Positions 1 to 63,618 of a stretch of 64,000 nt of DNA are shown one piece after another (the stretch's first letter is position 1; each line of letters begins with the position of its first letter). The notes beneath the pieces were generated by a model. That model was not told the origin of the DNA and made no database searches. It worked only from the letters and a program-made list of their open reading frames with translations. The position numbers and the translations under genes are program-made. This DNA is from Nocardia asteroides (GTDB taxonomy: Bacteria; Actinomycetota; Actinomycetes; Mycobacteriales; Mycobacteriaceae): contig CP082844.1 in NCBI GenBank assembly GCA_019930625.1, forward strand, positions 5,890,001 to 5,954,000, read 5' to 3'.

Positions 1-709
1 GCTCGACTCGTTCCGACAGCGCGGCGATGCGGCCGAGTTCGGTGTGCATTCCGGTGGCGAAGACGATGCCGCGTGCCTCGCCCTCGGTGCAGGAGGTGCC
101 GCTGAAGACCAGTTCGCGGGCCTGCGCCAGCGGCACCCCGGCATCGACAGCGTCGGCGCTTCGGTAGACCGGCATCGACTCCCCGGTCAGTTCCGACAGA
201 TCCACCTCGACACCGCCGGTGAGCAGGCGCGCGTCCGCGCAGATTCGGTCGCCTTCGGCGATGACAAGGACATCTCCTGGCACGACACCGGTCGCCTCGA
301 CCTCGGTGACCTGGCTGTCACGCACGACTTGCGCTCGTATCGGCAGATAGGCGGCCAGTGCCTCCACCGCCTGCTCGGCGTGCCGTTCCTGGGCGAACGC
401 AAACGCCGCGTTGATCACGATGACGACGACGATCGCGATCGCGACCGGGACGATGCCGACCACCCCGGCGAGACCGGCCGCGGCCCACAGCAACAGCGCC
501 AGCGGGTGGGTGAGCTGGCGAGCCAGATCCCGTTGCCAGCTCCGCCGGCCTCGCCGCCGCAGCATGTTCGGTCCATAATGGACAAGACGCCGTTCGGCCT
601 CGCGAGCGGTGAGTCCGGAGCGGCTGCCGCGCAGATCGCGTAGCAGCAGATCGATCCGCTCCGTGGGATCGATCCTCAGATCCGATTCCGGCTCGACCAG
701 GTCGGTCAC
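1..709 (-). CDS. P-type cation-transporting ATPase, CtpF-like (N-terminal part, runs off left edge)
   Basis: This is the first 236 residues of an ATP-driven cation pump of the plasma membrane; the rest lies beyond the window edge. It opens with a cation-ATPase N-terminal domain ([16 protein letters not shown]), then two membrane helices (about residues 65-100) and an actuator domain with the TGES dephosphorylation motif (ELTGESMPV). The GTG start at 709 overlaps the TGA of the upstream DUF302 gene (GTGA), so the two are probably translationally coupled. CtpF of M. tuberculosis is a DosR-regulon Ca-type ATPase, and the setting fits that role. The phosphorylation site and ion-binding helices are not visible, so substrate is an inference. 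Confidence 0.85.
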
Positions 710-1590
710 GTGGATGCCGGCGCCGCGTCTCGGAGGCTGTCCAAGGCGCCCAGGAGCCGCCGCCGTACGTCACCGGCGACCGGGGGTAGCTCCCATCCCG
801 CGGTGACGGGAGCCAGCACATCGGGATCGATGGCCTCGACCACGGTGCCGTCGTCGAGCGAGCGCACCACCACACGGCACGAGGTCACCAGGCCGGACTG
901 CCGGTCGGCGGTCAGCGCGCGGAAGGTCAGCCGAGGATCGCAAACGTCCAGAACCAGGTAGTTCTCGATGCGCTCGCCGATCGTCTCGCGCAGTGTTGCC
1001 TGCATGTCCACTTCGGCGGTCACGATGAGCCCGTGGCGCTGCAGCGCCTCCCTGGTGCGTTCGACGGCGATGTCGAACGGCGCGTCGAGGTTGGCCTCGA
1101 TGGTCGTGGCAGGAGCGACCGGCAATCGGATCTCGGTCAGCAGTCGCCGAGCATCCGAGACCTCGTCCGGGCCGATCAGATACGCCTCGGTTGGTGGACC
1201 GATCGGCTGATAATTCGCGTCGCGCAACCACTGTCGTAGCGCCTGATAGGCCGCGCCGAGGTCGCGGTAGCTGCCACGATGGCAGGTGCGGGCGACCAGG
1301 GTGCCGGGCAGGAGGATCACCTGGGCGCCGGAGCTTGGCCCGAGGGTGGGCGCAGGTTCCACCGGGACGCCGAATTCCACCGCGATCGCCTCGTCGATAG
1401 GCAGATCCTGGGAGAACGTGATCGTCGGCGCGCCGCTGGCAGTCAATCCCGCACTCTGCACGATCCGGGTCACCTCCCGCATTCCCTCGGCGATGTCCGC
1501 GCCGAGCAGATTCGGGTTCGGACGGATCTCGCGGGGCACCCGCAGCACTACCTCCGGTGCCGACTCGATCAGGGCCACCTGGTATTCCAT
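706..1590 (-). CDS. GyrI-like plus DUF302 two-domain protein
   Basis: This 294-residue soluble protein has two halves. Residues 1-150 look like a GyrI-like/AraC-effector ligand-binding fold. Residues 170-290 are a DUF302 domain ([16 protein letters not shown], then a conserved DVCDPRL stretch). No enzymatic activity is known for DUF302; such proteins recur near redox and metal genes. The ATG at 1590 is chosen because GGAGG lies six bases upstream; the in-frame ATG further out has no such site. The gene overlaps the start of the ATPase gene, making a two-gene operon. A DosR-like palindrome lies 58 bp upstream, shared with the divergent acyl-CoA synthetase operon. Confidence 0.8.
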
Positions 1591-1647
1591 CGCAGCCTCC
1601 TCGGTTCGCGTCATGCGATGAGCGTCCCTCCGCCAGGCTTCCGCCGC

Positions 1648-1667
1648 ACAGGGGCGAAAGTCCCGCT
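1648..1667. promoter_or_regulatory. DosR-box-like palindrome
   Basis: The sequence is ACAGGGGCGAAAGTCCCGCT, matching about 13 of 20 positions of the M. tuberculosis DosR consensus with a near-complete right half (AAAGTCCC). It lies between the divergent DUF302/ATPase operon and the synthetase/dehydrogenase operon and could serve either. Confidence 0.6.
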
Positions 1668-1782: not shown

Positions 1783-3593
<1,811 letters not shown>

Positions 3594-3597
<4 letters not shown>

Positions 3598-4601
3598 CCA
3601 CCATCGAGCTGCCGGATCATCTCGGCGACCGCCTGCCTTTGGCTGCCGCGGAACGGATCGAATTGCTGCGGCAGATGATCCGCATCCGGCGATTCGAGGA
3701 GCGCTGCGTGCAGCTCTACAGCGCCGAGAAGATCCGAGGTTTCCTGCACTTGTACGTGGGCGAGGAAGCTGTCGCGGCCGGTCTGCTGCGGCAGATCGGC
3801 GCCGAGGACGCGGTGGTGTCCACTTATCGGGAACACGGGCACGCACTCGCTCGCGGCATTCCGATGGCGGCATTGATGTCCGAGATGTTCGGACGGGTGT
3901 CCGGGTGCAGCGGCGGTCGCGGCGGCTCCATGCATCTGTTCGATGCCGGACGGCGCTTCTTCGGCGGCAACGCGATCGTCGCTGGTGGGCTGCCGCTAGC
4001 GGTCGGGCTGGCCCTGGCCGATGCCATGCGAAACCGTCCAGGGGTGACAGTGTGCCTGTTCGGTGACGGCGCCGCGGCCGAGGGCGAGTTCCACGAATGC
4101 TTGAACCTGGCCGCACTGTGGCGGCTTCCAGTCCTGTTCGCATGTGAGAACAACCGTTACGCGATGGGGACTGCGCTGCACCGTGAGCACGCGGTCACCG
4201 ATCTGGCGCTGCGCGCCTCCAGCTACGGTTTGGCTGCCTGGCCCGTCGACGGCATGGACCCCGAGGCAGTCGCGGCGGCCACCCGACGGGCGGTGGAATC
4301 CATTCGCGGGGGCAGCGGACCCTGCTTCCTGGAATTGCGAACCTATCGGTTCCGCGCCCACTCGCTCTACGACGCCGATCGCTACCGGGACAAAGCTGAG
4401 ATCGAGCTGTGGAAGAAACGCGATCCGATCCCGCGTCTGTCCGCCGAATTGCAGGCGTCGGGAGCGCTCGACGAGCAGGCCCTCTCCGCCCTTCAGGCCG
4501 AGGTCGACGCCGAGTTGGACGACGCGATCGCCGAGGCCGAGGAGGGGCCGCTGGAGGAGGTTGCCGACCTGACCCGGCACGTGTACGCGGAGCGACCATG
4601 A
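3594..4601 (+). CDS. 2-oxoacid dehydrogenase E1 alpha subunit (pyruvate/acetoin type)
   Basis: This 335-residue thiamine-diphosphate enzyme subunit decarboxylates a 2-oxoacid (or acetoin) and passes the acyl unit to the E2 lipoyl group. The ThDP-binding GDG...N motif is seen as [13 protein letters not shown] through ACENN (residues about 149-182), preceded by GRGGSMH near 104. The C-terminal phosphorylation-loop-like segment YRFRAHS is present. The GTG start overlaps the synthetase stop (GTGA), and its own stop overlaps the E1 beta ATG. Similar genes serve in pyruvate, acetoin or branched-chain complexes. The PDH-like reading rests on the split alpha/beta form and the linked acetyl-type synthetase. 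Confidence 0.9.
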
Positions 4602-5566
4602 TCACCTATCGCGAGGCGGTGCGCGAAGCGCTGCGAGAAGCGCTGGATCGCGATGATCGCACCTTCCTGATGGGGGAGGACGTCGGCGCCTACGGCGGCT
4701 GCTTCGGGGTCAGTCGCGGCTTGCTCGAGGAGTATGGACCGAACCGGATCCGCGACACTCCCTTGAGCGAATCCGCGTTCGTCGGCGCGGGCATCGGCGC
4801 GGCGTTGGGTGGTATGCGGCCGATCGTCGAGATCATGACCGGCAATTTCAGCTTGCTCGCGCTGGACCAGATCCTCAACAACGCCGCGACGTTGCGGCAC
4901 ATGTCGGGTGGTCAGCTCGGCGTGCCCTTGGTGATCCGGATGGCGACGGGCGCTGGCCGTCAATTGGCTGCCCAGCATTCGCACAGCCTGGAAGCCTTTT
5001 ACGCGCACATCCCGGGACTTCGCGTGGTTTCACCGGCCACCGTGCCGGACGCTCGCGGGATGCTGTGGACCGCGCTGCAGGATCCGGACCCGGTCGTGAT
5101 CTTCGAACCGATCGCGTTGTACAACAGCGAGGGCGAGTTGCCTCTGGACGCGGAGCCGGTGGACATCGACCATGCGGCGCTGCGGCGGGCGGGGACCGAT
5201 GTCACTGTCGTCGCGTTCGGCGGGACTCTGTCGATCGCCGAGTCAGCCGCCGAACTGCTCGCCGGCGAAGGAGTTTCCGCGGAAGTGATTGATCTGCGCA
5301 GTTTGCGGCCACTGGATCAAACCACGGTGCTCGACTCGGTGGCGCGCACACATCGCCTGGTGATCGTCGACGAGTGCTGGCGCAGTGTCGGTATTGCGGC
5401 GGAAATAGCCGCCCGCGCAGCCGAATACGCTTATTTCGACCTCGACGCCCCGATCGCGCGGGTCTGTACCGCAGAGGTGCCGATTCCGTATGCGCGGCAG
5501 CTGGAGGAGGCGGCGCTGCCGCGGGTGGAGGCTGTCGTCGACGCGGCGCGGACGGCGGTGAGCTGA
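4598..5566 (+). CDS. 2-oxoacid dehydrogenase E1 beta subunit
   Basis: This 322-residue protein is the partner of E1 alpha, forming the alpha2beta2 decarboxylase. It begins [16 protein letters not shown] and carries the family signatures GEDVGAYGG, the [18 protein letters not shown] block and IVEIMTGNF. The transketolase C-terminal domain starts near residue 190 (DVTVVAFGG) and contains the [11 protein letters not shown] element. The ATG at 4598 overlaps the E1 alpha TGA, and the E2 GTG follows its stop directly. This tight packing implies stoichiometric co-translation. Confidence 0.9.
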
Positions 5567-7054
5567 GTGACCGAGTTCCAGATGCCCTCGCTGGGCGCCG
5601 ACATGGTCGAGGGCACACTGCTGCACTGGCTCGTACATCCAGGAGATGTGGTGCACAAGGGAGACGTGGTTGCGGAGGTGGACACCACCAAGGCCGCGAT
5701 CGAGATCGAATGCTTCGATGACGGCGTCGTCGGGACGATCCTGGTACCGGAAGGAAAGACGGTGCCGGTGGGCACCCCGCTGGCCACGATAGAACCCGCA
5801 ATGCGCCAGCCCGGCGAGGCCGGCGGGGCCCGAACCGCTGTACCGGCCGCGAACACACAGCCGGGGACCGAACCGGTGCAACCGGCCCACGGTGAGCAGG
5901 CACCCGGTCCGGATGGCGCACAGGAAGACGGTTCTCGTGCCACACCGCTGATCCGGCGACTGGCACAGGAGGCGGGCATCGATCTGGCGACACTGCACGG
6001 GTCGGGGCCCGGTGGGCGGATCGTGCGCGCGGATGTGGAGGCTGTCATCTCCGCCGGTGAGCGCGCGACGCCGCAACATGTTGCCGCCGGTCTCGACGAG
6101 CAGATGCCGCTCCAGGAGCGAACGAAGCCTCAGGAGGGATTCGACGCACCCGAAGGTCCGTCGCTACGAACCGAGGTGGCGCGAGCGTCCGGCTACGCGC
6201 GTCGGCTGGTCTCCGGATCAGGAGTCGATCTGGCGAACGTCTCGGGCACCGGCCCGGCCGGTGCAGTGCGCGCTCGCGATGTACGAACCGCCGGAGTCGG
6301 CCCCGGAACTGCCTCTCCCGCAGCGGAATCCGCGCCCGCACCGCCCGCTGGACAGACACGTGAGCGCACTGCCGAAGCAGCGCAACATGATCCCGTCGCG
6401 ATACGCAAGGTGATCGCGGCGGCCATGACCAGGTCGAAGCGGACGGTACCGCACTACTACCTGTCCAGCACCATCGATATGGACGCCGCACTGCGCTGGC
6501 TGGAGGACACGAACCGGCGCGCACCCGTCACCGCGCGCATGCTGTCCTCCGCTCTGCTGCTGTGTGCTACGGCGCGGGCGGCGCGCGCGGTGCCGGATCT
6601 CAACGGACACTGGCTCGATGACGAGTTCCGTCCGGCATCCGACGTGCATCTCGGCGTTGTGGTGTCGCTGCGGGGCGGCGGAATCATGGTGCCCACCATC
6701 CCGGACGCCGGCGCACTCGCTCCACCGGCCATGATGGACGCACTGCGTGGCGTGGTCGCCCGTGCTCGCACCGCCCGGCTGCGTTCCGCGGACGCCGTTC
6801 CCGCGACTATTACGGTGACGAACCTCGGTGAGTTAGGGGTGGATTCGGTCTTCGGCGTAATCGCCGCGCCGCAGGTCGCGATAGTCGGCTTCGGCGCTGT
6901 CGCCCAACGTCCCTGCGCGGTGAACGGGCTGCTGGGCGTGCGTCCCCAGTTGACCGCCACGCTCTCGGCGGATCATCGGGCCAGCGACGGCGCGGTCGGA
7001 GCCCGCTTTCTCAACACTGTCGCCGACCTGCTCCAACAGCCAGAGGAGTTGTGA
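5567..7054 (+). CDS. dihydrolipoamide acyltransferase (E2) with one lipoyl and two subunit-binding domains
   Basis: This 495-residue E2 has a lipoyl domain at residues 1-76, with the modified lysine in VDTTKAAIE (Lys42). After a Pro/Ala linker come two separate peripheral subunit-binding-like segments, at about 125-161 (ATPLIRRLAQEAGIDL) and about 205-240 (ASGYARRLVSGSGVDL). A catalytic domain follows from about 270 and ends with the active-site SADHRASDG motif near 467. One binding domain is usual, so the duplication is notable. E3 (lipoamide dehydrogenase) is not encoded nearby and must come from elsewhere. The GTG start abuts the preceding stop with no gap. Confidence 0.9.
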   Translation: MTEFQMPSLGADMVEGTLLHWLVHPGDVVHKGDVVAEVDTTKAAIEIECFDDGVVGTILVPEGKTVPVGTPLATIEPAMRQPGEAGGARTAVPAANTQPGTEPVQPAHGEQAPGPDGAQEDGSRATPLIRRLAQEAGIDLATLHGSGPGGRIVRADVEAVISAGERATPQHVAAGLDEQMPLQERTKPQEGFDAPEGPSLRTEVARASGYARRLVSGSGVDLANVSGTGPAGAVRARDVRTAGVGPGTASPAAESAPAPPAGQTRERTAEAAQHDPVAIRKVIAAAMTRSKRTVPHYYLSSTIDMDAALRWLEDTNRRAPVTARMLSSALLLCATARAARAVPDLNGHWLDDEFRPASDVHLGVVVSLRGGGIMVPTIPDAGALAPPAMMDALRGVVARARTARLRSADAVPATITVTNLGELGVDSVFGVIAAPQVAIVGFGAVAQRPCAVNGLLGVRPQLTATLSADHRASDGAVGARFLNTVADLLQQPEEL

Positions 7055-7057
7055 AGC

Positions 7058-7312
7058 ATGATGCCCGGAACCATGTCCCGCGAGAAGGCCGAAGGCATAG
7101 TGCGCGACGCACTGCGCGGATTCGCCGGCGAGGCCGACATCTCCGCCCTCGGCCAGGACGAACCTTTGCGCAGCGCATTGGAACTCGACTCGATCGACTT
7201 CCTCAGCTTCGTGGAACGGCTCTCCACCGCAGGCGGCCGGATCGAGGAGAGCGACTACCCACGGCTTTCGACGATCCGCTCTTGCGTCGACTTCCTCACC
7301 AGTCCCCGCTGA
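7058..7312 (+). CDS. acyl carrier protein-like phosphopantetheine protein
   Basis: This 84-residue acidic protein has the carrier-protein attachment motif as ELDSIDFLSFVERL, where Ser in DSID would receive 4'-phosphopantetheine. It starts three bases after the E2 stop, with AGGAG nine bases upstream of the ATG at 7058; a second ATG at 7061 and one at 7073 are alternatives. Its place as last gene of the synthetase/dehydrogenase operon suggests that an acyl product is loaded onto this dedicated carrier. That role is inference. Confidence 0.8.
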   Translation: MMPGTMSREKAEGIVRDALRGFAGEADISALGQDEPLRSALELDSIDFLSFVERLSTAGGRIEESDYPRLSTIRSCVDFLTSPR

Positions 7313-7352: not shown

Positions 7353-7931
7353 TCAGCGGTCTGGGACGATTCTGGCGTCGTCGACCACCTCCACGTGGCG
7401 CACACCGTCAACAGTGCGGACCAGAGCGGCGATGACCCGTTGTTCGCTGGGATCGGCGAACATGCCGCGAACGGTGACCACTCCGTCGGATATCTCGATC
7501 GACCACTGCCGACGGCTGCCTGCGTAGTCGTCCAGCAATGCTCGGATTCTCGCGTCGATGGTTGCGTCATCGCTGATCAAGGCGCGCAGCAGGTCGCGAC
7601 GAGATACGATTCCGACAAGTAGTCCGGCCTCCACGACGGGCATTGATCGAAGGTGCCCGGTGAGCATGCGGGAGGCGATCGTCGCGGTGTCGGTACCGGG
7701 TGTGACGACCTCGACCGGTGCCGACATCACCTGTTCGACCGTGGCGGCTCCTATGCCGGGATCCGCTGCCAGTGCGTCTGATTCGGCCAGCATTCCGACC
7801 ACTCGCCCCTGCTCGTCGACGACCGGCAGCGCGGCGAAGCCGTGCGCGGTCAGCAGTGCGGTCGCCTGACTCAACGGTGTTTCCGGCCGCGCCGTCACGA
7901 CAGGTCGGCTGAGGACATCCCGTGCGTACAT
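7353..7931 (-). CDS. CBS-pair plus BON domain protein
   Basis: This 192-residue cytoplasmic protein has two CBS motifs (residues about 7-55 and 66-115), which usually bind adenine nucleotides. They are followed by a BON domain (about 122-188; RQWSIEISDGVVTVRG) associated with membrane or ligand binding. The ATG at 7931 is preceded by GGAGGT at ideal spacing; the in-frame GTG at 7940 overlaps that ribosome-binding site and is rejected. The gene converges on the carrier-protein gene 40 bp away. A good DosR-like palindrome lies about 180 bp upstream. CBS proteins are common in dormancy regulons, but their ligands are mostly unknown. Confidence 0.85.
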   Translation of the reverse strand: MYARDVLSRPVVTARPETPLSQATALLTAHGFAALPVVDEQGRVVGMLAESDALAADPGIGAATVEQVMSAPVEVVTPGTDTATIASRMLTGHLRSMPVVEAGLLVGIVSRRDLLRALISDDATIDARIRALLDDYAGSRRQWSIEISDGVVTVRGMFADPSEQRVIAALVRTVDGVRHVEVVDDARIVPDR

Positions 7932-8429
7932 CGGTATCACCTCCGGAACGTGGCCGTGGACGTTGTTGTCGTGCCGGGTCGAGAACAGGCCGCGACGCGG
8001 CTCGCGGGCGCCCCGCTCGACGTTCGATGAGCGACAGGCGACTGGTCCGACGACATACGTTCAGCTTGATCGTCCTCCAGCGCTTACGTGAGAGGCGTCC
8101 TGCCCTCTCACTCCGGGACCAACGTCCTCGGGGCGTGGCGATGCCCAGGGTCCTGTGCATGTTCCGAACGGCCACCGGATGGTGACTTTCGTTTCTGTGG
8201 CAGCACGAAAGCGCAGCAGAAGATCGAGGTATAGGACGAGGCGATTCGACAGGCCGGGAGAGGCAGTTGTGACAATCACCAGATATGCGAGGTCAGGGCT
8301 CGGCGCTTCGCCGGTGTTGCCGGCATTGCGGCTGCCCGTCGGGGTGTCGCGGACGATGGGGGAGAGGTTGAGGCGGTTTCTCAAAATGCGTATCCGCGGC
8401 AACACACCGACACGCTCGACCCTTATCCG
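7932..8429. other. intergenic region with one DosR-like site
   Basis: This 500-bp gap lies between the divergent CBS/BON gene and the membrane-protein gene. The only structure I can support is the palindrome at 8112-8131. The short reading frames inside it lack ribosome-binding sites and recognisable motifs. Confidence 0.5.
8112..8131. promoter_or_regulatory. DosR-box-like palindrome
   Basis: The sequence is TCCGGGACCAACGTCCTCGG, with core GGGACCAACGTCC and 13 or more of 20 consensus positions. It lies between the divergent CBS/BON and membrane-protein genes. On the minus strand a TCACGT element lies 20 bp downstream. Confidence 0.65.
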
Positions 8430-9170
8430 GTGATCGACGTGGGAGCAGGCAAGGTCGTGCCGTCACGCCGCGACCTCGGGCGTCGCTGGTTTGTCGCGGT
8501 TACCAGCGGCGAGGCCCTCGGCTTCGTATTGCTCGCCTGTGTCGGTGCGCTCATCGCCGACTCGTCGCCCGGCGTGATCGCTGCCGCGCTATTGATCGCG
8601 GGTGCGGTCGAAGGCAGTGTGCTGGGCTGGTTCCAAGCCCGCGTCCTGCGCAGCCGACTGCGGGGCTTTGCGGCCCGCGACTGGGTCGCGGCCACGGTCG
8701 TCGGCGCTGTCGTCGCATGGACCGTCGGACTGTTACCCCTCCTCTACGGTGACCGAATCGGTGACTGGCCGATCGGTATACAAATGCCGACGGTTTCGGC
8801 AGGTGCGATCGTGATGGTGTTCGCTCTCGGTGTCGCACAGTGGTATGTCTTGCGGCAATGGTCAGACCGAGCGGTTCTGTGGATCTGGGCCAACGCCGTG
8901 GGCTGGATCACCGGGCTGAGCGCTTTCCTGGTGGTCACCGGCCCGCTGTGGCGGCCTGGGCAACCGGCGGTGGTCACTGCGGTGATCGGGGCTCTCGCCG
9001 GTCTGGTGATGGCCGCGGTGATGGCAGCGACCACGGGAGCGTTCCTGGTGCGCATCCTGGAGCCGGGACATCTGAGGGCTTCCTCTCGAACAGGTGAGAA
9101 CACTCGTCGCGGTTGGAAGTCGCGCGGTCGGCTGGATTCGCCGACGACATCACCCCGCACCAAATCGTGA
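8430..9170 (+). CDS. multi-pass membrane protein of unknown function
   Basis: This 246-residue hydrophobic protein has about six predicted transmembrane segments, including GFVLLACVGALIAD, WVAATVVGAVVAWTVGLLPLL, GAIVMVFALGVAQWYVL and GLVMAAVMAATTGAFLV. A basic, Ser/Thr-rich cytoplasmic-like tail of about 35 residues ends it. I recognise no catalytic or transport motif. The first available start is GTG at 8430, with no clear ribosome-binding site, so the true start is uncertain. It follows a DosR-like site in the divergent promoter region and may belong to the dormancy set. Confidence 0.6.
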   Translation: MIDVGAGKVVPSRRDLGRRWFVAVTSGEALGFVLLACVGALIADSSPGVIAAALLIAGAVEGSVLGWFQARVLRSRLRGFAARDWVAATVVGAVVAWTVGLLPLLYGDRIGDWPIGIQMPTVSAGAIVMVFALGVAQWYVLRQWSDRAVLWIWANAVGWITGLSAFLVVTGPLWRPGQPAVVTAVIGALAGLVMAAVMAATTGAFLVRILEPGHLRASSRTGENTRRGWKSRGRLDSPTTSPRTKS

Positions 9171-10685: not shown

Positions 10686-11095
10686 TACCTGCTGCCTTCC
10701 TCTACCAGGTGCCCCGTCGAACCGCTGCGTGTTCTCAGCCGTGCGTCCGGCCTTGTTCCACGGGGCGCGCGGTGTGAATGAGGGCCTGCGAACTGACGAT
10801 AGTTGCGTGCAGGGCCGGGCAATCGGCACGCCTCGGATCGCGGACCTCGGCACCGGCGGTGAGGAAGATCGAATCTCGAGGTGGGCAGCAGGTAAGGCAT
10901 CTCACCGGCGAACGGTCCGCGCCCGATCGCGCGGGGCCCCAGGCACACGACGGTTTCCATACCGTTCAGTCTGTTCAGTTGTGGTCGACGGCAAACGATG
11001 ACGAAGACCCTTATCCGAAGGCCTTTTGTCCTATACCCGGAAGCGTATCCGGGAGCAGAGGCCATCGTCTGCCCATCCGATCGGCCGGGTGTTGC
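10686..11095. other. intergenic region upstream of the WS/DGAT gene
   Basis: This 410-bp gap separates two minus-strand genes. It holds a weak DosR-like site at 11016-11035. I see no convincing gene in it. Confidence 0.4.
11016..11035. promoter_or_regulatory. weak DosR-box-like site
   Basis: The sequence is CGAAGGCCTTTTGTCCTATA, with about 11 of 20 consensus matches and an AT-rich centre. It is distant from the downstream WS/DGAT start. Confidence 0.35.
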
Positions 11096-13185: not shown

Positions 13186-13270
13186 ATCGGCCTGTCGCGA
13201 CATAGGCCCGTCGATGCGCGCGCCCGTCTCCGGCGAGGTCGCTGCGAAAGGACGGAGCGAGGAGGTTCCG

Positions 13271-29115: not shown

Positions 29116-29121
29116 ACCGTC

Positions 29122-51164: not shown

Positions 51165-51231
51165 GTATATCGCCCTCCGGACCTCGGAAATCAGCTGTCC
51201 TTCGTAGCGTAAGAACTCGCAGGTCGATCGG

Positions 51232-51251
51232 CTGCTGCCCTTGGTCCTGGT
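51232..51251. promoter_or_regulatory. DosR-box-like site
   Basis: On the minus strand this reads ACCAGGACCAAGGGCAGCAG, a partial match placed exactly 20 bp from the TACGCT -10 of the Usp gene. Confidence 0.45.
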
Positions 51252-51537
51252 CCCGCAGGCCGAAGGGCCGCAATGTCGCCGCGCCGGATCGCCCGGACGA
51301 CACCGGGTATCTGCCATCCGGACCTTCGCACCTGTCCGCCAGTAAAACCGGGAGGAGTGACGTGGGACGGCCGAATCCTGGGTAGGTGAGAGGTAGAGAC
51401 CGTGAATCTACAGCTTATCGTCCTCTTCGCAAACCGATCCGGCCAAGAGCATGCGGGTCGATGCATCGCCGCGACGACGGTCGCAAAGTGTTGTCGTTGC
51501 CGCGGTCATCGAATGAACGGGTATTCGGTCCCGCCTC

Positions 51538-51557
51538 CCCGGGGCCTTCGACCCTGT
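51538..51557. promoter_or_regulatory. DosR-box-like site upstream of the desaturase
   Basis: The sequence is CCCGGGGCCTTCGACCCTGT, about 11 of 20 matches. Its position argues against GTG 51556 as the desaturase start, because the site would overlap it. Confidence 0.45.
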
Positions 51558-53538: not shown

Positions 53539-56500
53539 ATGATGTTGGGCGGTTACTTCGATAAAGCGCTGCGTCTCCCGATGGTCGCAGCGAATGCGTT
53601 GCGGGTCCCGACGGCCTACGCGCGGCGTGCTCCGACTGTGGCGGCCTACGCGCTGCGTGCTCCGACTCTCGCGGCGGACGCGCTGCGCACCGTGTTATCG
53701 GACGCAGCGGGACACACCCGCCCCGTATGGTCCGGCGGCGACCGCCTGCACGTCGCGGTGCGCGGACCGGCGTCGGACCGGCTCGAGGCGTTCACCATGG
53801 ACTTGACCGCGCGGGTCGGCCAGTTGCCCGAGGTGGCTTGGGCTGGCCTCGACGCCGGGTGCGGGCGTCTCGTGGTCTCCCGGAAATCTTCGGAGGAGTT
53901 CGACATGGCCGCCATCTTCGCCGCAGTGGCGGAGGCGGAGACCGCCGCGGATGTCGAGGCTTCCTGCGCCGCGGCTGTCGCCACGCATCCCACCGACCGG
54001 ACCGCTATGGCCCGGTATGCCGTGGCAGCGGTCGCCGACGTGGCCGCGATCGGCGTCGCCGCTGTCGGCGCTCTGCTGCGTGTTCCCGGGCGCTTGACGC
54101 CGATCGAACTAGCACCCGTCATCGCGTTCGTGCAGAACCAAGAGCGGCTGCGCGGCCCGCTGGAGCGGCGATTCGGGGTGACCGAGGTGGACTTGGCCCT
54201 TGGCATCGCTGCTGCCACGGCCGGTGCCCTGGAACGACAGGCGCTCAGCCCGGTCGTCGATCTGATACACCGGGTGTCGCTGCTGCGGCAGGAACAGTCA
54301 CGCGCGCAAACCTTCGCGCGAGTGGAGCCCGTGCTGTACGCGACCGCGCCGCCGGCACGGCCGCTGCCGGAGCCCCCGCCGCGGCCCATCCCGTTGCCGC
54401 CGGGTCCGATCGAACGCTACGACGAGCAAGACCTGATGGCGACGATAGCCGCTGCACTGACCACCATCCCGCTTTCTCACCGGGCGCAGGAGGCGATCGA
54501 CGTGGTGAGCGCGGGGGTTGCTAAGGCCGCCCGGCTCGGGCGCGAGGCATTCGCCACCGGAGTAACGGAGTACCTGGGCCGCTGTGACGTACTGGTGGCG
54601 CGTCCGGGACCGTTGCGCATACTCGACCGCGTCGATCGCCTCGTGATCGACGTGGATCTGCTCGGTGACGCGCAACCGCCGGAGCCGGTGACCGGCCAGG
54701 ACATGGAGATTGTCCGGTACGACCCCAAGACCGAGCCCGAGCAAGGTGGGGAGGACCTCACCGAGCTCGTCGCCCGGCTGCAGCGCGAAGGCCACGTCGT
54801 CGCGGTCGTCGCCGGCGGCGACGAGGCCGCGCTCGCCGCCGCGGACTGCGGCGTAGCCGTCGCACCCCACCCGGAGCATCCGGTGCCGTGGCATGCCGAC
54901 CTCATCGCCGTCGACGGGCCGGTCGCCGTCGCGGCCGTGATCGACGCCTGCTGGCTCGCCCGGGACATCAGCCGGCACAGTGTGCTGCTGGCGCTGGCCG
55001 GGTCGGCGGCGAGCGCGCTCGTGCTGCTCGGCGTCCCGATGCCGTGGCGGCGTCGTCAGGTGCTGCCGGTCTCGCTCAGCGTCGACGCGGCGGCTCTGAT
55101 CGCACTGGCACACGGGCGCCTGAGTGCGTTACGGCTCGTCCCGCCGTCCCCGAAGGCACAGACGCATGAAGACTGGCATCGCGTCCCTGCCGCCGAGGTG
55201 CTCACCCGATTGGGCAGTAGCCCGGAAGGGCTCACCGCCGCCGAGGCCGGCGCCCGCCAGCCGCCGCCAGCCGCCATGCCGAGCGCACATCGGCAGTTCC
55301 TGGCCCATGTTCTCAACGAGCTGCGCAATCCCCTCACACCAGTGCTCGCGGCGGGTGCCGCGCTGTCGATGGCCGTCGGATCCATGCTGGACGCGGCCAT
55401 GGTGGCCGCCGTCGTGCTCGCCGACGCCGGGATCGGTGCGCTGCAACAGTTCGAGGCCGACCGTGCCGTCGCCGCGCTCGACCGGGTGGCCGCCCAGCGG
55501 GTGCGAGTGCGCCGCGACGGGACCGAGCGTGGTGTCCTCGCCGGCGAGTTGGTCGTCGGCGACGTCATCCGCCTCGGTCCTGGCGAAGGGGTGCCCGCCG
55601 ACTGCCGCCTGCTTGAGGCCGAGGGCCTGGAGATCGACGAGTCCGCGTTGACCGGCGAGTCACTGCCGGTGCCCAAGGGCCCCGCGCCGATCGACGCCGC
55701 GGCGCTGGCCGACCAGACATGCATGTTGTTCGCGGGCACCGCCGTCGCGACGGGACGAGCCAGCGGGGTCGTGGTAGCGGTCGGGGCGGACACCGCCGCC
55801 GGACGGGCCGCCCATGGCGTCACTTCTCCGCGCACCGGGGTGGAGACCCGCCTCGAGGCGTTGGCGGCGCGCGCCACCCCGGTCGCACTCGGGGCGGGAG
55901 TCGTCACCGTGGCCGCCAACCTCGCCCGGGGCGCCCCGCTGGCCGAGACGCTGGCCACCGGCGTGAGCCTCACCGTCGCGGCCGTCCCCGAGAGCCTGCC
56001 GATCCTCGCCACCGCTGCCCAGCTCGCCGGGGCCAGACGCCTGGCCGAGCGGGGTGTCCTGGTCCGCCACAAGCGAGCCGTGGAGGCGCTCGGACGGGTC
56101 GATGTGCTGTGCGTGGACAAGACCGGCACCCTCACCCATGGAATCCTGCGCGTCACCGCCGTGCACGACGGATTTCAGGGTGCCGATCCCGGTCAGCTCC
56201 CCGGCAGGCACCGGCGGATCCTCGCCACCGCCCATGCAGTGGCAGCGGCCACCCTGCCTGGGCGTCGTCGCACGGGCAGCACCGACGACGCGATCGTCAC
56301 CGCCGCGACAGCGGCCCGGCTCGCGGAGCCTCCGGCCGCATCGACCGAGATGACCTACGAGTCGGGCCGGGCCTACCACGCGGTCATCGTCCCTGCGGAG
56401 GTCGGTGTCCAGCTGAACGTCATCGGCGCTCCGGAAACGATCTCGAGCCGCTGCACTCACTACGAACATCCCGCCTCGGGTCACATCGAGTTGGATCGAC

Positions 56501-57798
56501 ATCGCCGCGTCGAGCTCGATGAACTGGTCGAGGAGTTGGCGGGAGACGGCGGCCGGGTGCTCGCCGTCGCCACCCACCGGCTCGCCGCGGCACCAGACGG
56601 CGAGTTGACCGAAGAAGACGTGATGGGCCTCACCCTGGCCGGGTTCCTGGTCCTCTCCGACCCGCCACGCGGCCACGCCGCGGAGGCTTTGAATCGAATC
56701 GCCCGAGCCGGTGTACGGCCCGTGCTGATCAGCGGCGACCATCCTGCGACGGCCCGCTGGTTGGCCGCCGAGGTAGGAATGCTGCATACGTCCGACGGCA
56801 GCACCGGTATCCTCACCGGCCCAGAGCTCGACCGTCTCGAGGACGACGCCCTCGACGCGAGGCTGCCCGGGGTGTCCGTCTGTGCCCGGGTCACGCCTGC
56901 CCACAAAGTCCGGCTGGTGGCCGCCTACCGCAGAGCCGGGCACTGCGTCGCCATGACCGGCGATGGTGTGAACGACGCGGCCGCGATCCGGCTCGCCGAC
57001 GTCGGTATCGCCCTCGGCAGCGGCCGCAGCACCGAGGCGGCCCGCCACGCCGCCGACGTCGTGCTCGTCGAGGACCACATCGGCAGTATCGTCGACGCAC
57101 TCATCGAAGGACGTGCCCTGTGGGTGGCGGTCCGCGATGCGGTCGCCAACCTGATCGGCCACAACTACGGCGAGATCGCGGTGATCACCGGCTCTAGTCT
57201 GCTGACCGGCACGACCCCGCTCACCGCCCGCCAGCTGCTGCTCTGCAATCTGTTCACCGACACGATCCCGGCACTGGCAATCGCCATGCGCCCAGTGCCC
57301 GACCTCGATCCGGAGCATCTGCTCGCAGAGGGACCGGACCGCTCCGTCGGCCCGTTGCTGACCGAACGCATCACCGTGAACGGCGTCGCCACCGGTCTGG
57401 CTGGCGCGGGCGGCTACCTGGCCGCCCGCCTCACCGGTAGCGTCCAGCGGGCTCGCACCGTCACCCTGCTGAGCATCGTCGGCGCGCAGCTGGACGAAAC
57501 CGCGGTGCTGCGACCGACCGACCCTGTCGTCGTCGGCGCGGCAGTGGTATCCGCGGCGGCGCTGCTGGGCATCGTCGAGACTCCAGGACTGAGTCAGTTG
57601 TTCGGATGCCGACCGATAGGTCCAGGCGGCCTGCTCATTGCCGGAACCGCCGCCACGGCAGGGGCCGTCGGCACACTGCTGTTCGGTCCGCAGACCTCGC
57701 TCCGCCGTGACGAGGAACGGCTGTCTGCCAGCCACACCATACGGCACCTTCCGTGGTCGCGGACCTCGGCTGTGACGCATGGGCACATGATCTTGTAG
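53539..57798 (+). CDS. large P-type cation ATPase, CtpI/CtpH-like
   Basis: This 1419-residue pump has a long N-terminal extension (about 600 residues) before the ATPase core. The extension contains short repeats (about 20-55), an HMA-like fold (LHVAVRGPASDRLEAFTMDL) and hydrophobic helices. The core has TGES near 704, VPESLP in helix 4 near 815, phosphorylation Asp in DKTGTLTHG near 860, and GDGVNDAA near 1140. The PESLP helix resembles P2-type Ca/Mg-like pumps; no CPC copper motif is present. M. tuberculosis CtpH and CtpI share this unusual size. GGAGG immediately precedes ATGATG; the second ATG or TTG 53545 may be used. Confidence 0.88.
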   Translation: MMLGGYFDKALRLPMVAANALRVPTAYARRAPTVAAYALRAPTLAADALRTVLSDAAGHTRPVWSGGDRLHVAVRGPASDRLEAFTMDLTARVGQLPEVAWAGLDAGCGRLVVSRKSSEEFDMAAIFAAVAEAETAADVEASCAAAVATHPTDRTAMARYAVAAVADVAAIGVAAVGALLRVPGRLTPIELAPVIAFVQNQERLRGPLERRFGVTEVDLALGIAAATAGALERQALSPVVDLIHRVSLLRQEQSRAQTFARVEPVLYATAPPARPLPEPPPRPIPLPPGPIERYDEQDLMATIAAALTTIPLSHRAQEAIDVVSAGVAKAARLGREAFATGVTEYLGRCDVLVARPGPLRILDRVDRLVIDVDLLGDAQPPEPVTGQDMEIVRYDPKTEPEQGGEDLTELVARLQREGHVVAVVAGGDEAALAAADCGVAVAPHPEHPVPWHADLIAVDGPVAVAAVIDACWLARDISRHSVLLALAGSAASALVLLGVPMPWRRRQVLPVSLSVDAAALIALAHGRLSALRLVPPSPKAQTHEDWHRVPAAEVLTRLGSSPEGLTAAEAGARQPPPAAMPSAHRQFLAHVLNELRNPLTPVLAAGAALSMAVGSMLDAAMVAAVVLADAGIGALQQFEADRAVAALDRVAAQRVRVRRDGTERGVLAGELVVGDVIRLGPGEGVPADCRLLEAEGLEIDESALTGESLPVPKGPAPIDAAALADQTCMLFAGTAVATGRASGVVVAVGADTAAGRAAHGVTSPRTGVETRLEALAARATPVALGAGVVTVAANLARGAPLAETLATGVSLTVAAVPESLPILATAAQLAGARRLAERGVLVRHKRAVEALGRVDVLCVDKTGTLTHGILRVTAVHDGFQGADPGQLPGRHRRILATAHAVAAATLPGRRRTGSTDDAIVTAATAARLAEPPAASTEMTYESGRAYHAVIVPAEVGVQLNVIGAPETISSRCTHYEHPASGHIELDRHRRVELDELVEELAGDGGRVLAVATHRLAAAPDGELTEEDVMGLTLAGFLVLSDPPRGHAAEALNRIARAGVRPVLISGDHPATARWLAAEVGMLHTSDGSTGILTGPELDRLEDDALDARLPGVSVCARVTPAHKVRLVAAYRRAGHCVAMTGDGVNDAAAIRLADVGIALGSGRSTEAARHAADVVLVEDHIGSIVDALIEGRALWVAVRDAVANLIGHNYGEIAVITGSSLLTGTTPLTARQLLLCNLFTDTIPALAIAMRPVPDLDPEHLLAEGPDRSVGPLLTERITVNGVATGLAGAGGYLAARLTGSVQRARTVTLLSIVGAQLDETAVLRPTDPVVVGAAVVSAAALLGIVETPGLSQLFGCRPIGPGGLLIAGTAATAGAVGTLLFGPQTSLRRDEERLSASHTIRHLPWSRTSAVTHGHMIL
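53614..53673 (+). repeat. 30-bp tandem repeat in the ATPase N terminus
   Basis: Two 30-bp units beginning GCCTACGCGC lie head to tail, with a diverged copy before (53587-53613) and a partial one after. They encode the ten-residue units AYARRAPTVA and AYALRAPTLA, giving an amphipathic Ala/Arg-rich helix. Confidence 0.7.
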
Positions 57799-59569: not shown

Positions 59570-60979
59570 CTACTTCGCGTGCCGTGATCGGGTGGCGGCG
59601 CTGATAGCGCGGCCGAGGACCGGTTGCGGTCGTGGCGACACCGGTCTGCCGCGGGCGTGGCCGAGCAGCACCGCGATCTCGGTCGTGATGCTCCCGGAGA
59701 TCGTGTCGATATCCGGTGTGGTGTCGTAATCACCGGTGATGCCGAAGGTCAGGCGGTCGAGGTAGCTGAGGATCGCGATCGTTGTGCGGACCCGCATGGC
59801 GATCGGGATGCAGGGCCACAACTCGATCACGTTGCGTCCGGCGAGGGTGAGGCGATGCCGGGGTCCGGGAATATTGGTCGCGAACGCGACCACGCCGCGC
59901 TGGGGAAACGACACTGCCAGCCGGAACACTTCCGAAACGATCCCGAACGGCAGCCGCCGAGACAGCGAGAGCAGCGACTTCTCGGCAGCGGGTTCCCCTC
60001 GGGACCGGTGCCTCTGGATCTGCTCGTGGACGGCGAGCAGACGCTCCACGGGATGGTCGACCTCGATCGGCAGATGAGCGATCACCGCGGAGACGCGGTT
60101 GTCGAGTACCTGTCTGGCCTCGGTCGTTCGTGTCGAGACCGGAACAACGACCCGGAGCTCGGTAGGAGTGGGATGTTCGCCGCGGCTGAGCAGCAATCGA
60201 CGGTAGGCAGCGGCGATGGCGGCTACGGCGACATCGTTGACGGTTACGTCGAACGCCGTAGCTATCTCGCGCACTTGCGACAGTTCGGTTCGAGCAACGG
60301 TGTAGCGGCGCTGTCTACCGATGGGGCCGTTGAGCGAGGACTCACTTGCCGGCGCGATCGCCGCGTACAATACGGGCGCCAACGTGCGCACGGTTCCCAC
60401 TGCGGAACGCGGGATGGTCAAGGGTGCCCGAATCGCCTTCTTCAACAGTTCCGGCAAGCCGGTGCTCGCACGTCTTTCGTCCGACCTCCGATGCTCGCCG
60501 ATGTCGCTCGCATCAGGATCGCAGAAGCTTTCGAGCAGCGTGATCTCGGAGATCCCGTCGGCCAAGGTGTGGTGGGCTTTGAGGATCAGCACCCAGCGGT
60601 CCTCGGCCAGCCGGTCGACCACGACCACCTCCCACAGCGGATGGTCTCGATCCAGTCGCTCGGTCAGCTCGGTCGCGATCAGCTCCCGCAGTTCCTTCTC
60701 GCCGCCCGGAGCCGGTAACGCGGTCCACCGGATGTGATGGTTCAGATCGAAATGCGGGTCGTTCTCCCATACCGGCGCTTTCAGGTCCAAGGGGGTGCGC
60801 CGGACCCGCTGCCGCAGCCGTGCGTGCCGCTCCAGGCCGCGATCCAGCCAACCCCGTAGTTCCTCCTTGGCCGGGGGTGGCCCTTCGACGATCGCCACGG
60901 TTCCGATGCCGAGGCTGACCCTGCGGTCGGTGTCTTCCATCTCCATGAAGCCTGTGTCCAACGGGCCCAATTCCGTCAT
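59570..60979 (-). CDS. wax ester synthase/diacylglycerol acyltransferase (second copy)
   Basis: This 469-residue WS/DGAT starts MTELGPLDTGFMEMEDTD, with the catalytic motif as AHHTLADGISE near 135. The C-terminal family segment is SNIPGP-like (ATNIPGPRHRLTLAGRNVIELWPCIPI). It is clearly diverged from the copy at 9273-10685, so the two may prefer different acceptors or chain lengths. ATG 60979 has only a weak purine stretch upstream. A GGGAC half-site lies next to the start, but no full DosR palindrome was found. Confidence 0.9.
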   Translation of the reverse strand: MTELGPLDTGFMEMEDTDRRVSLGIGTVAIVEGPPPAKEELRGWLDRGLERHARLRQRVRRTPLDLKAPVWENDPHFDLNHHIRWTALPAPGGEKELRELIATELTERLDRDHPLWEVVVVDRLAEDRWVLILKAHHTLADGISEITLLESFCDPDASDIGEHRRSDERRASTGLPELLKKAIRAPLTIPRSAVGTVRTLAPVLYAAIAPASESSLNGPIGRQRRYTVARTELSQVREIATAFDVTVNDVAVAAIAAAYRRLLLSRGEHPTPTELRVVVPVSTRTTEARQVLDNRVSAVIAHLPIEVDHPVERLLAVHEQIQRHRSRGEPAAEKSLLSLSRRLPFGIVSEVFRLAVSFPQRGVVAFATNIPGPRHRLTLAGRNVIELWPCIPIAMRVRTTIAILSYLDRLTFGITGDYDTTPDIDTISGSITTEIAVLLGHARGRPVSPRPQPVLGRAISAATRSRHAK

Positions 60980-61141
60980 CGTGAACCTGTCCCGGCAGCG
61001 GTCGCAGGCTGCTGCCTTTGGCTAGAACTGCCACTGCTACGAAAAGAATCGTCGCGCGAACCGGACGTCAGTAGTGAGATGCCAAGGTCACCGGCACAGG
61101 TGACGTTGGGCCCAGGCGGTCGACACGAGCCGGGAGCAGCC

Positions 61142-63154
61142 TCAGAGTCCAGTGGGATACGTTTCCGGAGTGGCGTCGGTGACGCGGTGCTCACCCGGGT
61201 CCAAAGGCTCGACGGCGGTGGTGTTGTCGATATGGACGACCGCGTCGTATCTCTCACCGAGGCGGGTGTGGAAGTAGTGGCTTCTGCGTTCGGTGCCGGG
61301 CTGATAGATGACGCCGATGGCGCGTTCGAGGCGCGGATGCCGAAGCAACTCCGCGGCGCCGGGCGAGTCGGTGCGAAGCATGAAGGACGGGATGCCGGTG
61401 TCGTGCATGAGCTCCTCGGCGCTGCTGGGCAGGGACATGCGTACGAGTTTGTGCTCGGCGGGGCCGTCCCATTCGCTAGCCGCGGTGACCGTGCCGCGGC
61501 AGGTGGTGAATCCGATGATGCGGCATGCGTTCGGATGCCTTTCGCGGACCAACTGCCCGAGGGAGAGCTGGCCCTCGGCGGCCAGTTCGGTCGCACGGGC
61601 GTCTCCGACGTGCGAATTGTGCGCCCATACCACGATTCGTGCCGGAGCGCCCGGACGGTCGAGGTGGTCGGACAGAGCGTCGAGCGTGTCGGCCATGTGC
61701 TCGTCCCGCAGATTCCACGATGAGACGCGGTCGCCGAACATGGCGCGGTAGTACGCCTCCGCGTCCCGCACCGTACAAGCATTGCGCAGAGCGTCGAAGA
61801 GTGCCTCACCATCGTGTGCCTCGAGATGTCCGGCGGCGCTGCGCTGGAGGTCGACGAGTTGGCGTAAGACTTCGGCTTGACAGGACTCGCCCGCGCCGAA
61901 CGCGGCGGCGAAACCGTAGGCTTGGCCGTCGTTTTCCGAGGTGCGGTCGAAACAACTGTAGCGCCGTCGCGCGCGTTCGGCCGCAGCGGGATCCACCGCC
62001 TCGAGGTAGGAGATGACCTGCCGCACGGAGCGATGCATGCTGTACAGGTCGAGGCCGTAGAAGCCGGTGAGCGCTGCACCCCCATGACGTTGTTCGTCGT
62101 TGTGCCGGCGCAGCCAGGAAACGAATTCCTGGACCACTGTGTTTCGCCACATCCATACGGGGAACCGTTCGAAGCCGCTCAGCGCGTGGGCCGCCGATTC
62201 GTCCGTCCCGAGCCCGTGGACGTATCGGTCGACCCGGTGAGCATCGGGCCAGTCCGCTTCGGCCGCGACGCCGGTGAAACCTTTCGCGGTGATGAGCCAG
62301 CGGGTGATCGCTGCTCGGGCGGAGTAGAACTCGTGGGTGCCGTGCGAACTCTCGCCGATGAGCACGAATTGTGCGTCGCCGACGAGATCCTCCAAGGCTT
62401 CTTCGGATGGCACGCCTGCGGGAGCCGCGATCGCTGCCCTGCGTGCCGTCTCGACAGGGTCGGTCATGGTGGTCGAGGCCTCTGCCGGGGAAGTCGCGAG
62501 TAGTTCCCGGACCTGTCCGTCGGTTACCTGGGCGAAGTTCCAGAATGAGTCGCCGACCGCGAGGAAGGGAGAGGGCATGCTCGCGCATACCATTTCGTCG
62601 ACCAACGCCTCGAACTCCCGGCAGGTCGATTCCGGCGCCGCCGGAACGGCTACCACGATGCGCTTCGGCTCGCCCGCGGCGATCGACTGTACCGCGGCGA
62701 ACATACTCGCGCCGGTGGCCAAGCCGTCGTCGACGAGGATCACGGTGCGGCCCGCCACGTCCATCGGTCGGCGGCCGCCGCGGTAGGCGGCCTCCCGCCG
62801 CATCAACTCCCGTGCCTCGTCACGGGCGATGTCACGCACCTGTTCGGCGGTCAGGCGCATACCTCGGATAAGGTCGTCGTTCACCACGATCCGGCCGCCG
62901 CTGGCCAGCGCGCCGATCGCGTATTCGGGATTCCCCGGTGCGCCGAGCTTGCGCACGATCAGCGTGTCGAGCGGGGCGCCGAGTGCGGCGGCGACCTCCC
63001 AGGCGACCGGGACACCGCCGCGAGCGAGACCGAGTACGACGACGTCAGGATTACCCCGGTAATGCTGGAGCAGTCCGGCGAGGACGCGACCGGCCTCGCG
63101 GCGGTCGCGGAAGATCGGTTGGGGTTCGTCACGGGTGATCGGCGCCGATGCCAT
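61142..63154 (-). CDS. phosphoribosyltransferase-erythromycin esterase fusion (Rv2030c-like)
   Basis: This 670-residue fusion matches DosR-regulon Rv2030c (681 residues). The N-terminal phosphoribosyltransferase domain (about 1-215) has the PRPP loop [13 protein letters not shown] near 122. The C-terminal erythromycin-esterase-like domain (about 240-650) has [20 protein letters not shown] with the family His/Glu, [14 protein letters not shown], and [12 protein letters not shown]. No confirmed activity is known for the fusion. GAGGAG precedes ATG 63154. A DosR-like site is 134 bp upstream. Confidence 0.9.
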
Positions 63155-63618
63155 GACGTGCTCCTCTCAGCGGATGGCGTCCGGGGCGCTCCGGGATCGC
63201 GCAGATCGCCAGGACACGTCCCGGGCGCGCATACCCACAAGCTTGCGCGTGAGCAGGCCACTGAGTGAGAGGCATCCTGCCCGCGCCGAATGGACCATGG
63301 TCACCGGTGCGGCGGACGCTCATGCCACAAGCCGGAATCGCAAGACCAACGGCGCTCCACTCGGCGACGATCAGATCTGCCCAGTGCGAGATGGCGAAGA
63401 ACACTGGGGTGTGGAAGGAGGTCTTCGATGATCGCGGCACGCCGGGCGTCCTGGGGAGACGGCTGGAGTCTCTCGGGACGAGGATGCCGCGAGGCACGGA
63501 AACACTTCACGATCCGTTTCGCTGTCCCCACATCCTCTTCCCGACAACTAGCGCGTCCTTGGTTCCTCCGGGTGTGGGAACACCAACGGCGCCGGTGTGC
63601 TGGAGCGGATCGGGGAAC
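63155..63618. other. intergenic region upstream of the Rv2030c-like gene
   Basis: This 464-bp gap lies between two minus-strand genes. It holds the DosR-like site at 63288-63307 and a small inverted repeat (GTTCC/GGAAC near 63560-63580) that may be a hairpin after the SulP gene. No gene is supported. Confidence 0.4.
63288..63307. promoter_or_regulatory. DosR-box-like site
   Basis: The sequence is GAATGGACCATGGTCACCGG, about 11 of 20 matches with a symmetric GGACC/GGTC core, 134 bp upstream of the Rv2030c-like ATG. Confidence 0.5.

Follow-up and report, generated by a model that had tools for sequence, protein, structure and literature searches.

Introduction

Why should a Nocardia chromosome keep a dormancy-type response regulator, its sensor kinase and a large set of candidate target genes close together, when the DosR targets of Mycobacterium tuberculosis are scattered over several loci? 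The locus that raises this question is a 64,000-nucleotide stretch of Nocardia asteroides (positions 5890001-5954000 of contig CP082844.1, assembly GCA_019930625.1; genome of 7,415,900 bases in 2 contigs), here called the window, whose genes have their nearest named protein relatives in Nocardia gipuzkoensis (94%) and N. abscessus (91%). An earlier note on this DNA had described a single 60-kb dormancy island, which could be ancestral or transferable. Our analysis suggests that the window is very probably the largest part of a DevR-DevS (DosR) hypoxia/redox regulon cluster. This reading is based on homology, haem-site and kinase motifs, the receiver residue Asp54, enrichment of a promoter motif, a recurring site in devR promoters and linkage across the genus; from these we infer induction, phosphorylation, DNA binding and haem binding. 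Published work is cited by its PMC number.

The regulator and its sensor

Gene calling gave 53 genes in the window. Pfam was applied to 59 reading frames and NCBIfam to 20 of these 59. Among them is one devR-devS pair:

47593-49347 (-): DevS/DosT-like sensor kinase with two GAF domains, HisKA_3 and HATPase (Pfam)
49408-50055 (-): DevR of a Nocardia-only clade (DevR structure 3c3w, 325 bits over residues 1-211; tree)

The first GAF domain (GAF-A) of the kinase matches DevS 2y8h with 206 bits and 2vzw, which we take to be DosT, with 229 bits. It retains the motif HHPPM, the histidine of which is presumably the haem ligand, and the kinase motif LHDHV is present as well. The protein thus has the complete DevS/DosT-type architecture (GAF-A with HHPPM, second GAF, HisKA_3, HATPase), and haem binding itself is predicted. 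The regulator resembles DevR over its full length, with a LuxR-type DNA-binding domain and a receiver Asp54 in register with 3c3w. In M. tuberculosis DevR, Asp54 is the phospho-acceptor (PMC3029386).

The genome encodes four intact DevR proteins related by at least 76% identity, namely that of the window and those at 5712374, 5119624 and 5880558 (76-86% identical), and two of the three further copies lie within 230 kb. Four DevS are encoded too; HHPPM is present in the three that were read over GAF-A, and of the fourth (6935640) only the later part was read. A 12-residue stretch, which we take to be the recognition helix, is identical in 3c3w and the three own DevR copies that were read (window, 5.712 and 5.881 Mb), and the regulons of these copies probably overlap for that reason.

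A tree of 93 DevR places the window DevR and the 5.712-Mb copy in a Nocardia-only clade of 21 rows (support 100/96; clade A). The 5.881- and 5.120-Mb copies belong to a clade of 58 rows (100/94; clade B), together with Mycobacterium rows, one Rhodococcus, one Williamsia and one Gordonia; two other Rhodococcus rows stand outside both clades. Hence, the window DevR is not part of the mycobacterial DevR clade in this tree, which consists of the best matches to the window DevR plus fetched stretches, is thin in distant lineages and leaves out M. tuberculosis itself. One contig filed as a Bifidobacterium breve metagenome-assembled genome, with DevR, DevS, PfkB and Rv2006-type homologues, clusters with Mycobacterium in the tree and is probably misbinned.

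Candidate targets in the window

Around the pair, we found the following candidate targets:

1783-7312 (+): candidate target operon for an acetate-CoA-ligase-like enzyme, 2-oxoacid dehydrogenase E1 alpha, E1 beta and E2, and an acyl-carrier-like protein (Pfam, NCBIfam)
9273-10853 (-): wax ester/triacylglycerol synthase family protein (Pfam; TIGR02946 284 bits, under the cut-off of 310)
11096-12673 (-): Rv2004c-like AAA_33 (phosphotransferase/ATP-binding) protein (Pfam, homologues)
13214-14257 (+): PfkB-family kinase (Pfam; TIGR03168 273 bits, above the cut-off of 216)
26862-27869 (-; within 26862-28220): Acg/Rv3131-family nitroreductase 2 (NF047509 315.8 bits, cut-off 199)
28120-29115 (-): Acg nitroreductase 1 (2ymv, E 3e-93)
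29255-33229 (+; longest frame from 29180): Rv2006-type fusion of HAD, trehalose-phosphatase and GH65 (Pfam; TIGR00685 above cut-off; PDB)
33267-34178 (-): universal stress protein (Usp), Rv2623/TB31.7 type (3cis, E 1.7e-59; 2jax, TB31.7, E 4e-59)
34148-35122 (-): Usp (Pfam)
35420-36148 (-): flavodoxin-like protein (Pfam), with a DosR-like site at 36040
37012-37698 (+): Rv1733c family protein (NF050032 118 bits, cut-off 80)
37982-38911 (+): Usp (Pfam)
38973-43981 (-): NiFe hydrogenase operon of sulfhydrogenase layout, with maturation protease, large, small, NAD-binding, cNMP-binding and Fer4 proteins (Pfam)
44254-45174 (+): Usp (Pfam)
45505-45951 (-): Rv2626c (Hrp1) counterpart with two CBS domains (1xkf, E 8e-30)
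46243-47325 (-): Usp (Pfam)
50244-51317 (-): Usp (Pfam)
51586-52599 (+; longest frame from 51556): fatty acid desaturase-like protein (PF03405)
53539-57798 (+): large P-type cation ATPase (Pfam)
59570-60979 (-): second wax ester/triacylglycerol synthase family protein (Pfam), with a DosR-like site at 61100
61142-63154 (-): Rv2030c-type protein with phosphoribosyltransferase and erythromycin-esterase parts (Pfam), with DosR-like sites at 63291 and 63475

The relatives of Rv1733c, Rv2004c, Rv2006, PfkB, Rv2030c, nitroreductases and Usp that had been named from the sequence are hence present, as is devR-devS. Curated models or solved structures stand behind Rv1733c, Acg/Rv3131, Acg (2ymv), TB31.7 (3cis, which we take to be Rv2623), Rv2626c, DevR (3c3w) and the DevS GAF-A; the labels Rv2004c, Rv2006 and Rv2030c are our tentative assignments from domain layout. 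Relatives of the 11096-12673 protein carry the name bifunctional aminoglycoside phosphotransferase/ATP-binding. The Rv2626c relative exists at 45505-45951; the CBS-BON protein at 7353-7940 (-; Pfam) is not its counterpart, matching Rv2626c at only 29 bits. All six Usp are two-domain proteins. The ligase-like enzyme probably starts at 1783, since its three best outside homologues begin aligning at residue 166-187 and the ATG at 1783 is preceded by GGAGG.

In the hydrogenase operon, all four Hyd/Shy subunit types (alpha, beta, gamma, delta) were found; the best NCBIfam models are ShyA, ShyD, ShyB and AsrB (HydG next), all under curated cut-offs, and the enzyme may be of group 3b. The four subunits share 61-73% identity with Mycobacterium genes in two loci (L023, L031) where the hydrogenase adjoins DevR-DevS. 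A cyclic-nucleotide-binding-domain protein is encoded within the operon at 42349-42858 (-).

DosR-like sites in promoters

Sites were defined as GGGAC-N4-GTCCC with up to 2 mismatches. By this definition, 24 non-genic places were found in the window, of which 21 lie in promoter segments. Besides those listed with their genes above, the motif scan returned:

1651-1664: GGGGCGAAAGTCCC, 1 mismatch, 119-132 bp before the start at 1783; called genic and so outside the promoter-segment counts
7066: site at a gene start
8115-8128: 1 mismatch
12987-13000: 0 mismatches, in the divergent Rv2004c-like/pfkB promoter
29152-29165 (2 mismatches) and 29206-29219 (1 mismatch): divergent nitroreductase/fusion promoter
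44053 (0 mismatches), 44100 and 44140 (2 each), spanning 44053-44153: between the hydrogenase operon and a usp gene
50132-50145: devR promoter site GTGACCGAGGTCCC, 1 mismatch, also from the devR-promoter survey
51471, 51519 and 51541 (2 mismatches each), spanning 51471-51554: before the desaturase gene

The promoters with two or three sites (29152/29206; 44053/44100/44140; 51471/51519/51541) are in keeping with M. tuberculosis DevR, which is described as binding at several sites (PMC3029386).

Promoter DNA of the window contains 21 sites in 25 segments (8,910 bp), compared to 115 in 525 control segments (182,213 bp) from 60 stretches of 20 kb drawn at random from this genome. We also defined a core (5.709-5.737 plus 5.870-5.956 Mb), drawn after the genes were known and before sites were counted; the non-core promoter segments of the surrounding 484 kb, here the flanks, hold 48 sites (124 segments, 82,704 bp). 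All 11,264 five-base palindromes with spacers 0-10 were ranked against the promoter background of this genome. The DosR word comes first in the window promoters (21 vs 5.68 expected, log10 p -6.2), third in the remainder of the core (20 vs 6.4, log10 p -4.9) and first in the pooled core (41 vs 12.1, log10 p -10.3). In the flanks, it is not enriched (48 vs 53.6 expected, rank 7013). A matrix built from the 26 Streptomyces coelicolor OsdR site sequences printed in PMC5069765 gave, at score >=7, 11 sites vs 2.4 expected in the window, 10 vs 2.7 in the rest of the core and 22 vs 22.2 in the flanks. The enrichment appears when promoter DNA is compared with promoter DNA of the same genome; genic DNA of the window has 0.55 sites per kb (32 sites, 57,870 bp), close to the 0.63 per kb of control promoters. 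The count of about 17 DosR-like sites given by the earlier note is fair once the 5.7 promoter sites expected by chance are subtracted from the 21. A de novo palindromic expectation-maximisation search drifted to GC and coding periodicity and was dropped, and the exhaustive ranking was used instead.

Recurrence in other Nocardia

The same promoter signal is seen in stretches of seven other Nocardia. Promoters of homologues of the window's dormancy genes contain 55 sites (79 promoters, 26,368 bp) and other promoters 83 (291 promoters, 95,437 bp), i.e. 2.09 vs 0.87 sites per kb (Poisson p 1e-8), with the same direction in 7/7; 34/79 vs 66/291 promoters have a site (Fisher p 5e-4). A site lies within 300 bp of 44 of the 94 devR-like genes; in 22 of 40 Nocardia devR rows, some from the same or a sister species, it stands at -70 to -99. 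This recurrence points to autoregulation in much of Nocardia.

DevS is found (E up to 1e-60) in 56/59 Nocardia, and one of the genomes (G048) has neither DevR nor DevS at the survey thresholds. From the 59, we chose 17 other genomes that have few contigs or a close or repeated DevS and searched them whole. Four of the 17 carry a full-length homologue of the fusion enzyme (one with an internal stop), in all four cases within 34 kb of DevR. Within 80 kb of DevR lie 6/10 GH65-only matches, 4/5 hydrogenase large subunits and 3/5 Rv2030c-type genes, one of the two missing cases of the last adjoining DevS on a contig that has no DevR. Species differ in gene content, the hydrogenase and the Rv2030c-type gene each being present in 5/17. 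Many of the same families stand near devR, with their order shuffled between species. Flank synteny (matches in 3/7 genomes) is too sparse to fix the cluster at one conserved chromosomal site. Beyond the genus, homologues of the E1 subunits, ACS, nitroreductase, Rv2030c, PfkB, Usp, DevR-DevS and Rv2004c lie within 20.6 kb in Mycobacterium attenuatum and M. persicum. The arrangement can be called ancestral only weakly, in that clusters centred on DevR turn up repeatedly across Actinomycetota; the gene order of the window is not shared.

Does DevR control the neighbourhood?

Several observations weigh against a DevR regulon of this size. About 13 kb of the window (roughly 14.4-26.9 kb) looks unrelated, with ordinary genes of no clear dormancy character (by Pfam a beta-lactamase-fold protein, an ABC transporter, ArsR regulators, an aminotransferase, rhodanese proteins, MFS and others); its only non-genic sites, at 18715 (not upstream of a gene) and 20278, have 2 mismatches each. 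Such 2-mismatch sites make up 19 of the 24, and chance would account for about 6 of the 21 sites in promoters. When 25 control segments were drawn ten times, the best log10 p values ran from -4.1 to -9.2; one was stronger than that of the DosR word (-9.2, a GC-rich word), one was equal to it (-6.2), and other words in the flanks reach -10.2. In the whole window, the core motif at up to 1 mismatch is found 7 times vs 5.95 in dinucleotide shuffles (39/100 shuffles reach 7), and the 20-base M. tuberculosis consensus has no match in the window even with 3 mismatches allowed. In 18/40 Nocardia rows, including the own copies at 5.712 and 5.120 Mb, the devR promoter lacks the site. Finally, three settings were chosen after genes or outputs were known, namely the limits of the core, the range of -70 to -99 and the distance of 80 kb.

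Since control draws and flank words give similar values, the palindrome p-values are inflated and rank alone is not decisive. Our argument rests on a motif named beforehand coming out on top, on the absence of flank enrichment and on the agreement of two separate sets. At up to 1 mismatch, the whole genome holds 286 sites in 7,415,900 bp, i.e. 2.5 expected per window, and a hand-made consensus matrix run over the whole window stays under the simulated mean at scores 6-8 and exceeds it at 9-12 (5 vs 1.65 at 11).

Could the window then be a general stress-gene neighbourhood, where DevR controls few operons and the rest arrived through gene duplication under other regulators? Many paralogues (six Usp, two nitroreductases), the prevalence of 2-mismatch sites, some promoters without sites and further regulators in the window (ArsR-type, a metal-sensing repressor, STAS proteins) would fit. 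However, the DosR word is the most enriched promoter palindrome and stands before unrelated families (hydrogenase, desaturase, fusion enzyme), and it is also enriched in other Nocardia, so that we regard this explanation as rather unlikely, though conceivable. As had been proposed, regulator, sensor and candidate targets are physically linked, with the motif enriched in the promoters of the latter.

Extent of the cluster and its copies

The DevR-DevS cluster does not end with the window. At its left side (5.870-5.890 Mb) lies a second devR-devS pair, with a devR of the mycobacterial-type clade about 9 kb outside the window, accompanied by three Usp, a nitroreductase, a phosphoribosyltransferase, a PPDK-like enzyme, a flavodoxin and an AMP-binding ligase; one left-hand gene is 33% identical to the window P-type ATPase and ends inside the window. 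The cluster hence continues 20 kb to the left, and the window is its largest part. The Usp-domain matches of the genome are concentrated here, 31 of 39 lying between 5.716 and 5.941 Mb (within 225 kb).

A paralogous block at 5.710-5.736 Mb (154-180 kb to the left) mirrors window genes, with nitroreductases at 81 and 86%, DevR at 86%, DevS at 88%, three Usp at 74-80%, a fourth Usp at 51% and a flavodoxin at 64%. The two devS genes at 5.717 and 5.937 Mb are 85.9% identical along 1,776 bp. In this block, devR stands apart from devS, and a DevR piece nearest to the clade B copies adjoins devS, so the block is rearranged. The piece (5719352-5719666, -) comprises 104 residues of the DNA-binding end only, 86% and 92% identical to the two own clade B copies. 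We considered a working DNA-binding-only regulator: the best 40 matches are DevR genes aligned from about residue 121, with no separate short form among them, so a remnant is likelier than a free DNA-binding domain. The isolated C-domain of M. tuberculosis DevR is described as binding the strong site only, with feeble activation (PMC3029386). An IS110 transposase lies at the right edge of the block (5737579). The block also encodes a protein with a Ribosom_S30AE_C domain (L166:4101-4877, +, in the locus where the DevR piece lies at 9352-9666), presumably of the ribosome-hibernation type.

A single compact 60-kb island with one DevR-DevS pair and one regulon is scarcely credible in view of these data. 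The window does hold one pair and most of the named candidate targets, but three further intact DevR (76-86%) and three further DevS exist in the genome, the set runs 20 kb further left, and a paralogous block lies at 5.710-5.736 Mb. The island as first described is wrong in extent: about 13 kb of it looks unrelated, and the left-hand part and the block lie outside it.

Was the cluster acquired as a block?

Horizontal acquisition of a dormancy island, moving as a block between actinobacteria, would agree with the variable content (hydrogenase and Rv2030c-type gene in 5/17 other Nocardia each), the IS110 transposase at the edge of the paralogous block and the similarity of the two devS copies. 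Yet, GC and tetranucleotide distances of window pieces are no more extreme than those of 60 random stretches of this genome, no tRNA is present in the window, and no integrase or transposase family turned up among the 59 window frames put to Pfam. The window thus shows neither the atypical composition nor the integrase, transposase or tRNA-bounded ends of a genomic island, and no signs of transfer. With the families in shuffled order in other Nocardia and the window DevR in a Nocardia-only clade, acquisition as a block is very unlikely, and the proposal of a transferable arrangement finds no footing in these results.

Three further observations concern neighbouring genes. Two stretches at the ArsR-rhodanese and metallo-beta-lactamase-rhodanese genes, 21025-22018 (994 bp) and 22540-23561 (1,022 bp), recur at 99.6% identity in 5999344-6001358, inverted and about 86 kb to the right, which reads as a very recent copy. 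The protein at 8430-9170 (+) has no Pfam or NCBIfam match; its source-named relatives among 34 matches are all Nocardia, two longer ones are named DUF385 or deazaflavin-dependent, and a paralogue (51%) lies at 5.735 Mb. Just to the right of the window, a P-type ATPase with a C-terminal hemerythrin domain (L086:3969-6335, +) is encoded near a phosphoenolpyruvate carboxykinase gene.

A proposed mechanism

We suggest the following working model for the DevR-DevS cluster. The haem-GAF kinase DevS would signal low oxygen (or NO/CO) and phosphorylate DevR at Asp54. DevR would then bind palindromes resembling GGGAC-N4-GTCCC, one of them in its own promoter, and switch on the linked genes for Usp, Acg nitroreductases, triacylglycerol synthases and trehalose and PfkB metabolism. 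Further targets may be the 2-oxoacid dehydrogenase operon, the NAD(P)-linked NiFe hydrogenase and the P-type pump. The cluster extends to the left of the window and is partly duplicated, with DevR copies of two clades.

But, why should one cluster contain DevR of two clades? Possibly, Nocardia runs two parallel DevR-DevS systems, one of the Nocardia-only clade A and one of the mycobacterial-type clade B, about 58 kb apart, which would read the same palindrome and share targets, with selection keeping targets near the regulators despite order shuffling and duplication. We offer this idea tentatively and hold it to be more doubtful than probable.

Relation to known systems

In M. smegmatis, DosR clusters are reported at msmeg_3926-3955 and msmeg_5241-5246; 31 hypoxia-induced genes lie near DevR/DevS, including five NiFe hydrogenase genes, a P-type ATPase and a phosphoenolpyruvate synthase, and the second, smaller cluster holds the other devR copy (PMC2799521). 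The Nocardia cluster is alike in its hydrogenase, its P-type ATPases and the PPDK/phosphoenolpyruvate-utilising enzyme just left of the window. It differs in having four DevR of two clades and a partly duplicated block, and in a 2-oxoacid dehydrogenase operon and triacylglycerol synthase genes within the cluster.

The OsdR-OsdK region of S. coelicolor (SCO0167-SCO0219) gathers regulator, sensor, 8 of the 11 Usp genes of the genome, a nitroreductase and predicted palindromic sites with the consensus AGGGCCGATCGGCCCT, and gel shifts show that OsdR binds predicted sites (PMC5069765). The Nocardia region likewise unites regulator, sensor, Usp genes, nitroreductase and palindromic sites. As far as the accessible part of that paper describes it, S. 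coelicolor differs from Nocardia by a single osdR-osdK operon, a nitrate reductase in the region and a site richer in GGCC.

With the DosR/DevR-DevS-DosT system of M. tuberculosis, the cluster shares regulator and sensor homology, target families and the palindrome core; unlike there, no HSP20/HspX family member is found among the 59 window frames put to Pfam, and the longer 20-base consensus is unmatched. For Rhodococcus equi, DosR-regulon homologues and a DosR box, NNNGGGHCNWWNGNCCCBNN, are reported (PMC2947987). By eye, the box agrees with the core used for Nocardia, and no cluster like the Nocardia one is described in the accessible part of that paper. DosRS of M. abscessus is published as well (PMC10034137). 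In the accessible literature on Nocardia with DosR/DevR/DevS, hypoxia, dormancy or universal stress protein, we found no paper on a Nocardia DosR regulon.

The DevR-centred regulon neighbourhood is real, of predicted function, and exceeds its first description in both size and duplication; its kind is already published in two relatives. The clustered layout itself has precedents in M. smegmatis and Streptomyces, and what is new is the doubled regulator. Our results extend the clustered DosR layout to Nocardia, a genus of soil bacteria and opportunistic pathogens, and suggest that the scattered arrangement of M. tuberculosis may be only one state of a neighbourhood recurring across Actinomycetota. 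The doubled regulator poses the question why two DevR clades with the same DNA-contact stretch should be kept in one cluster.

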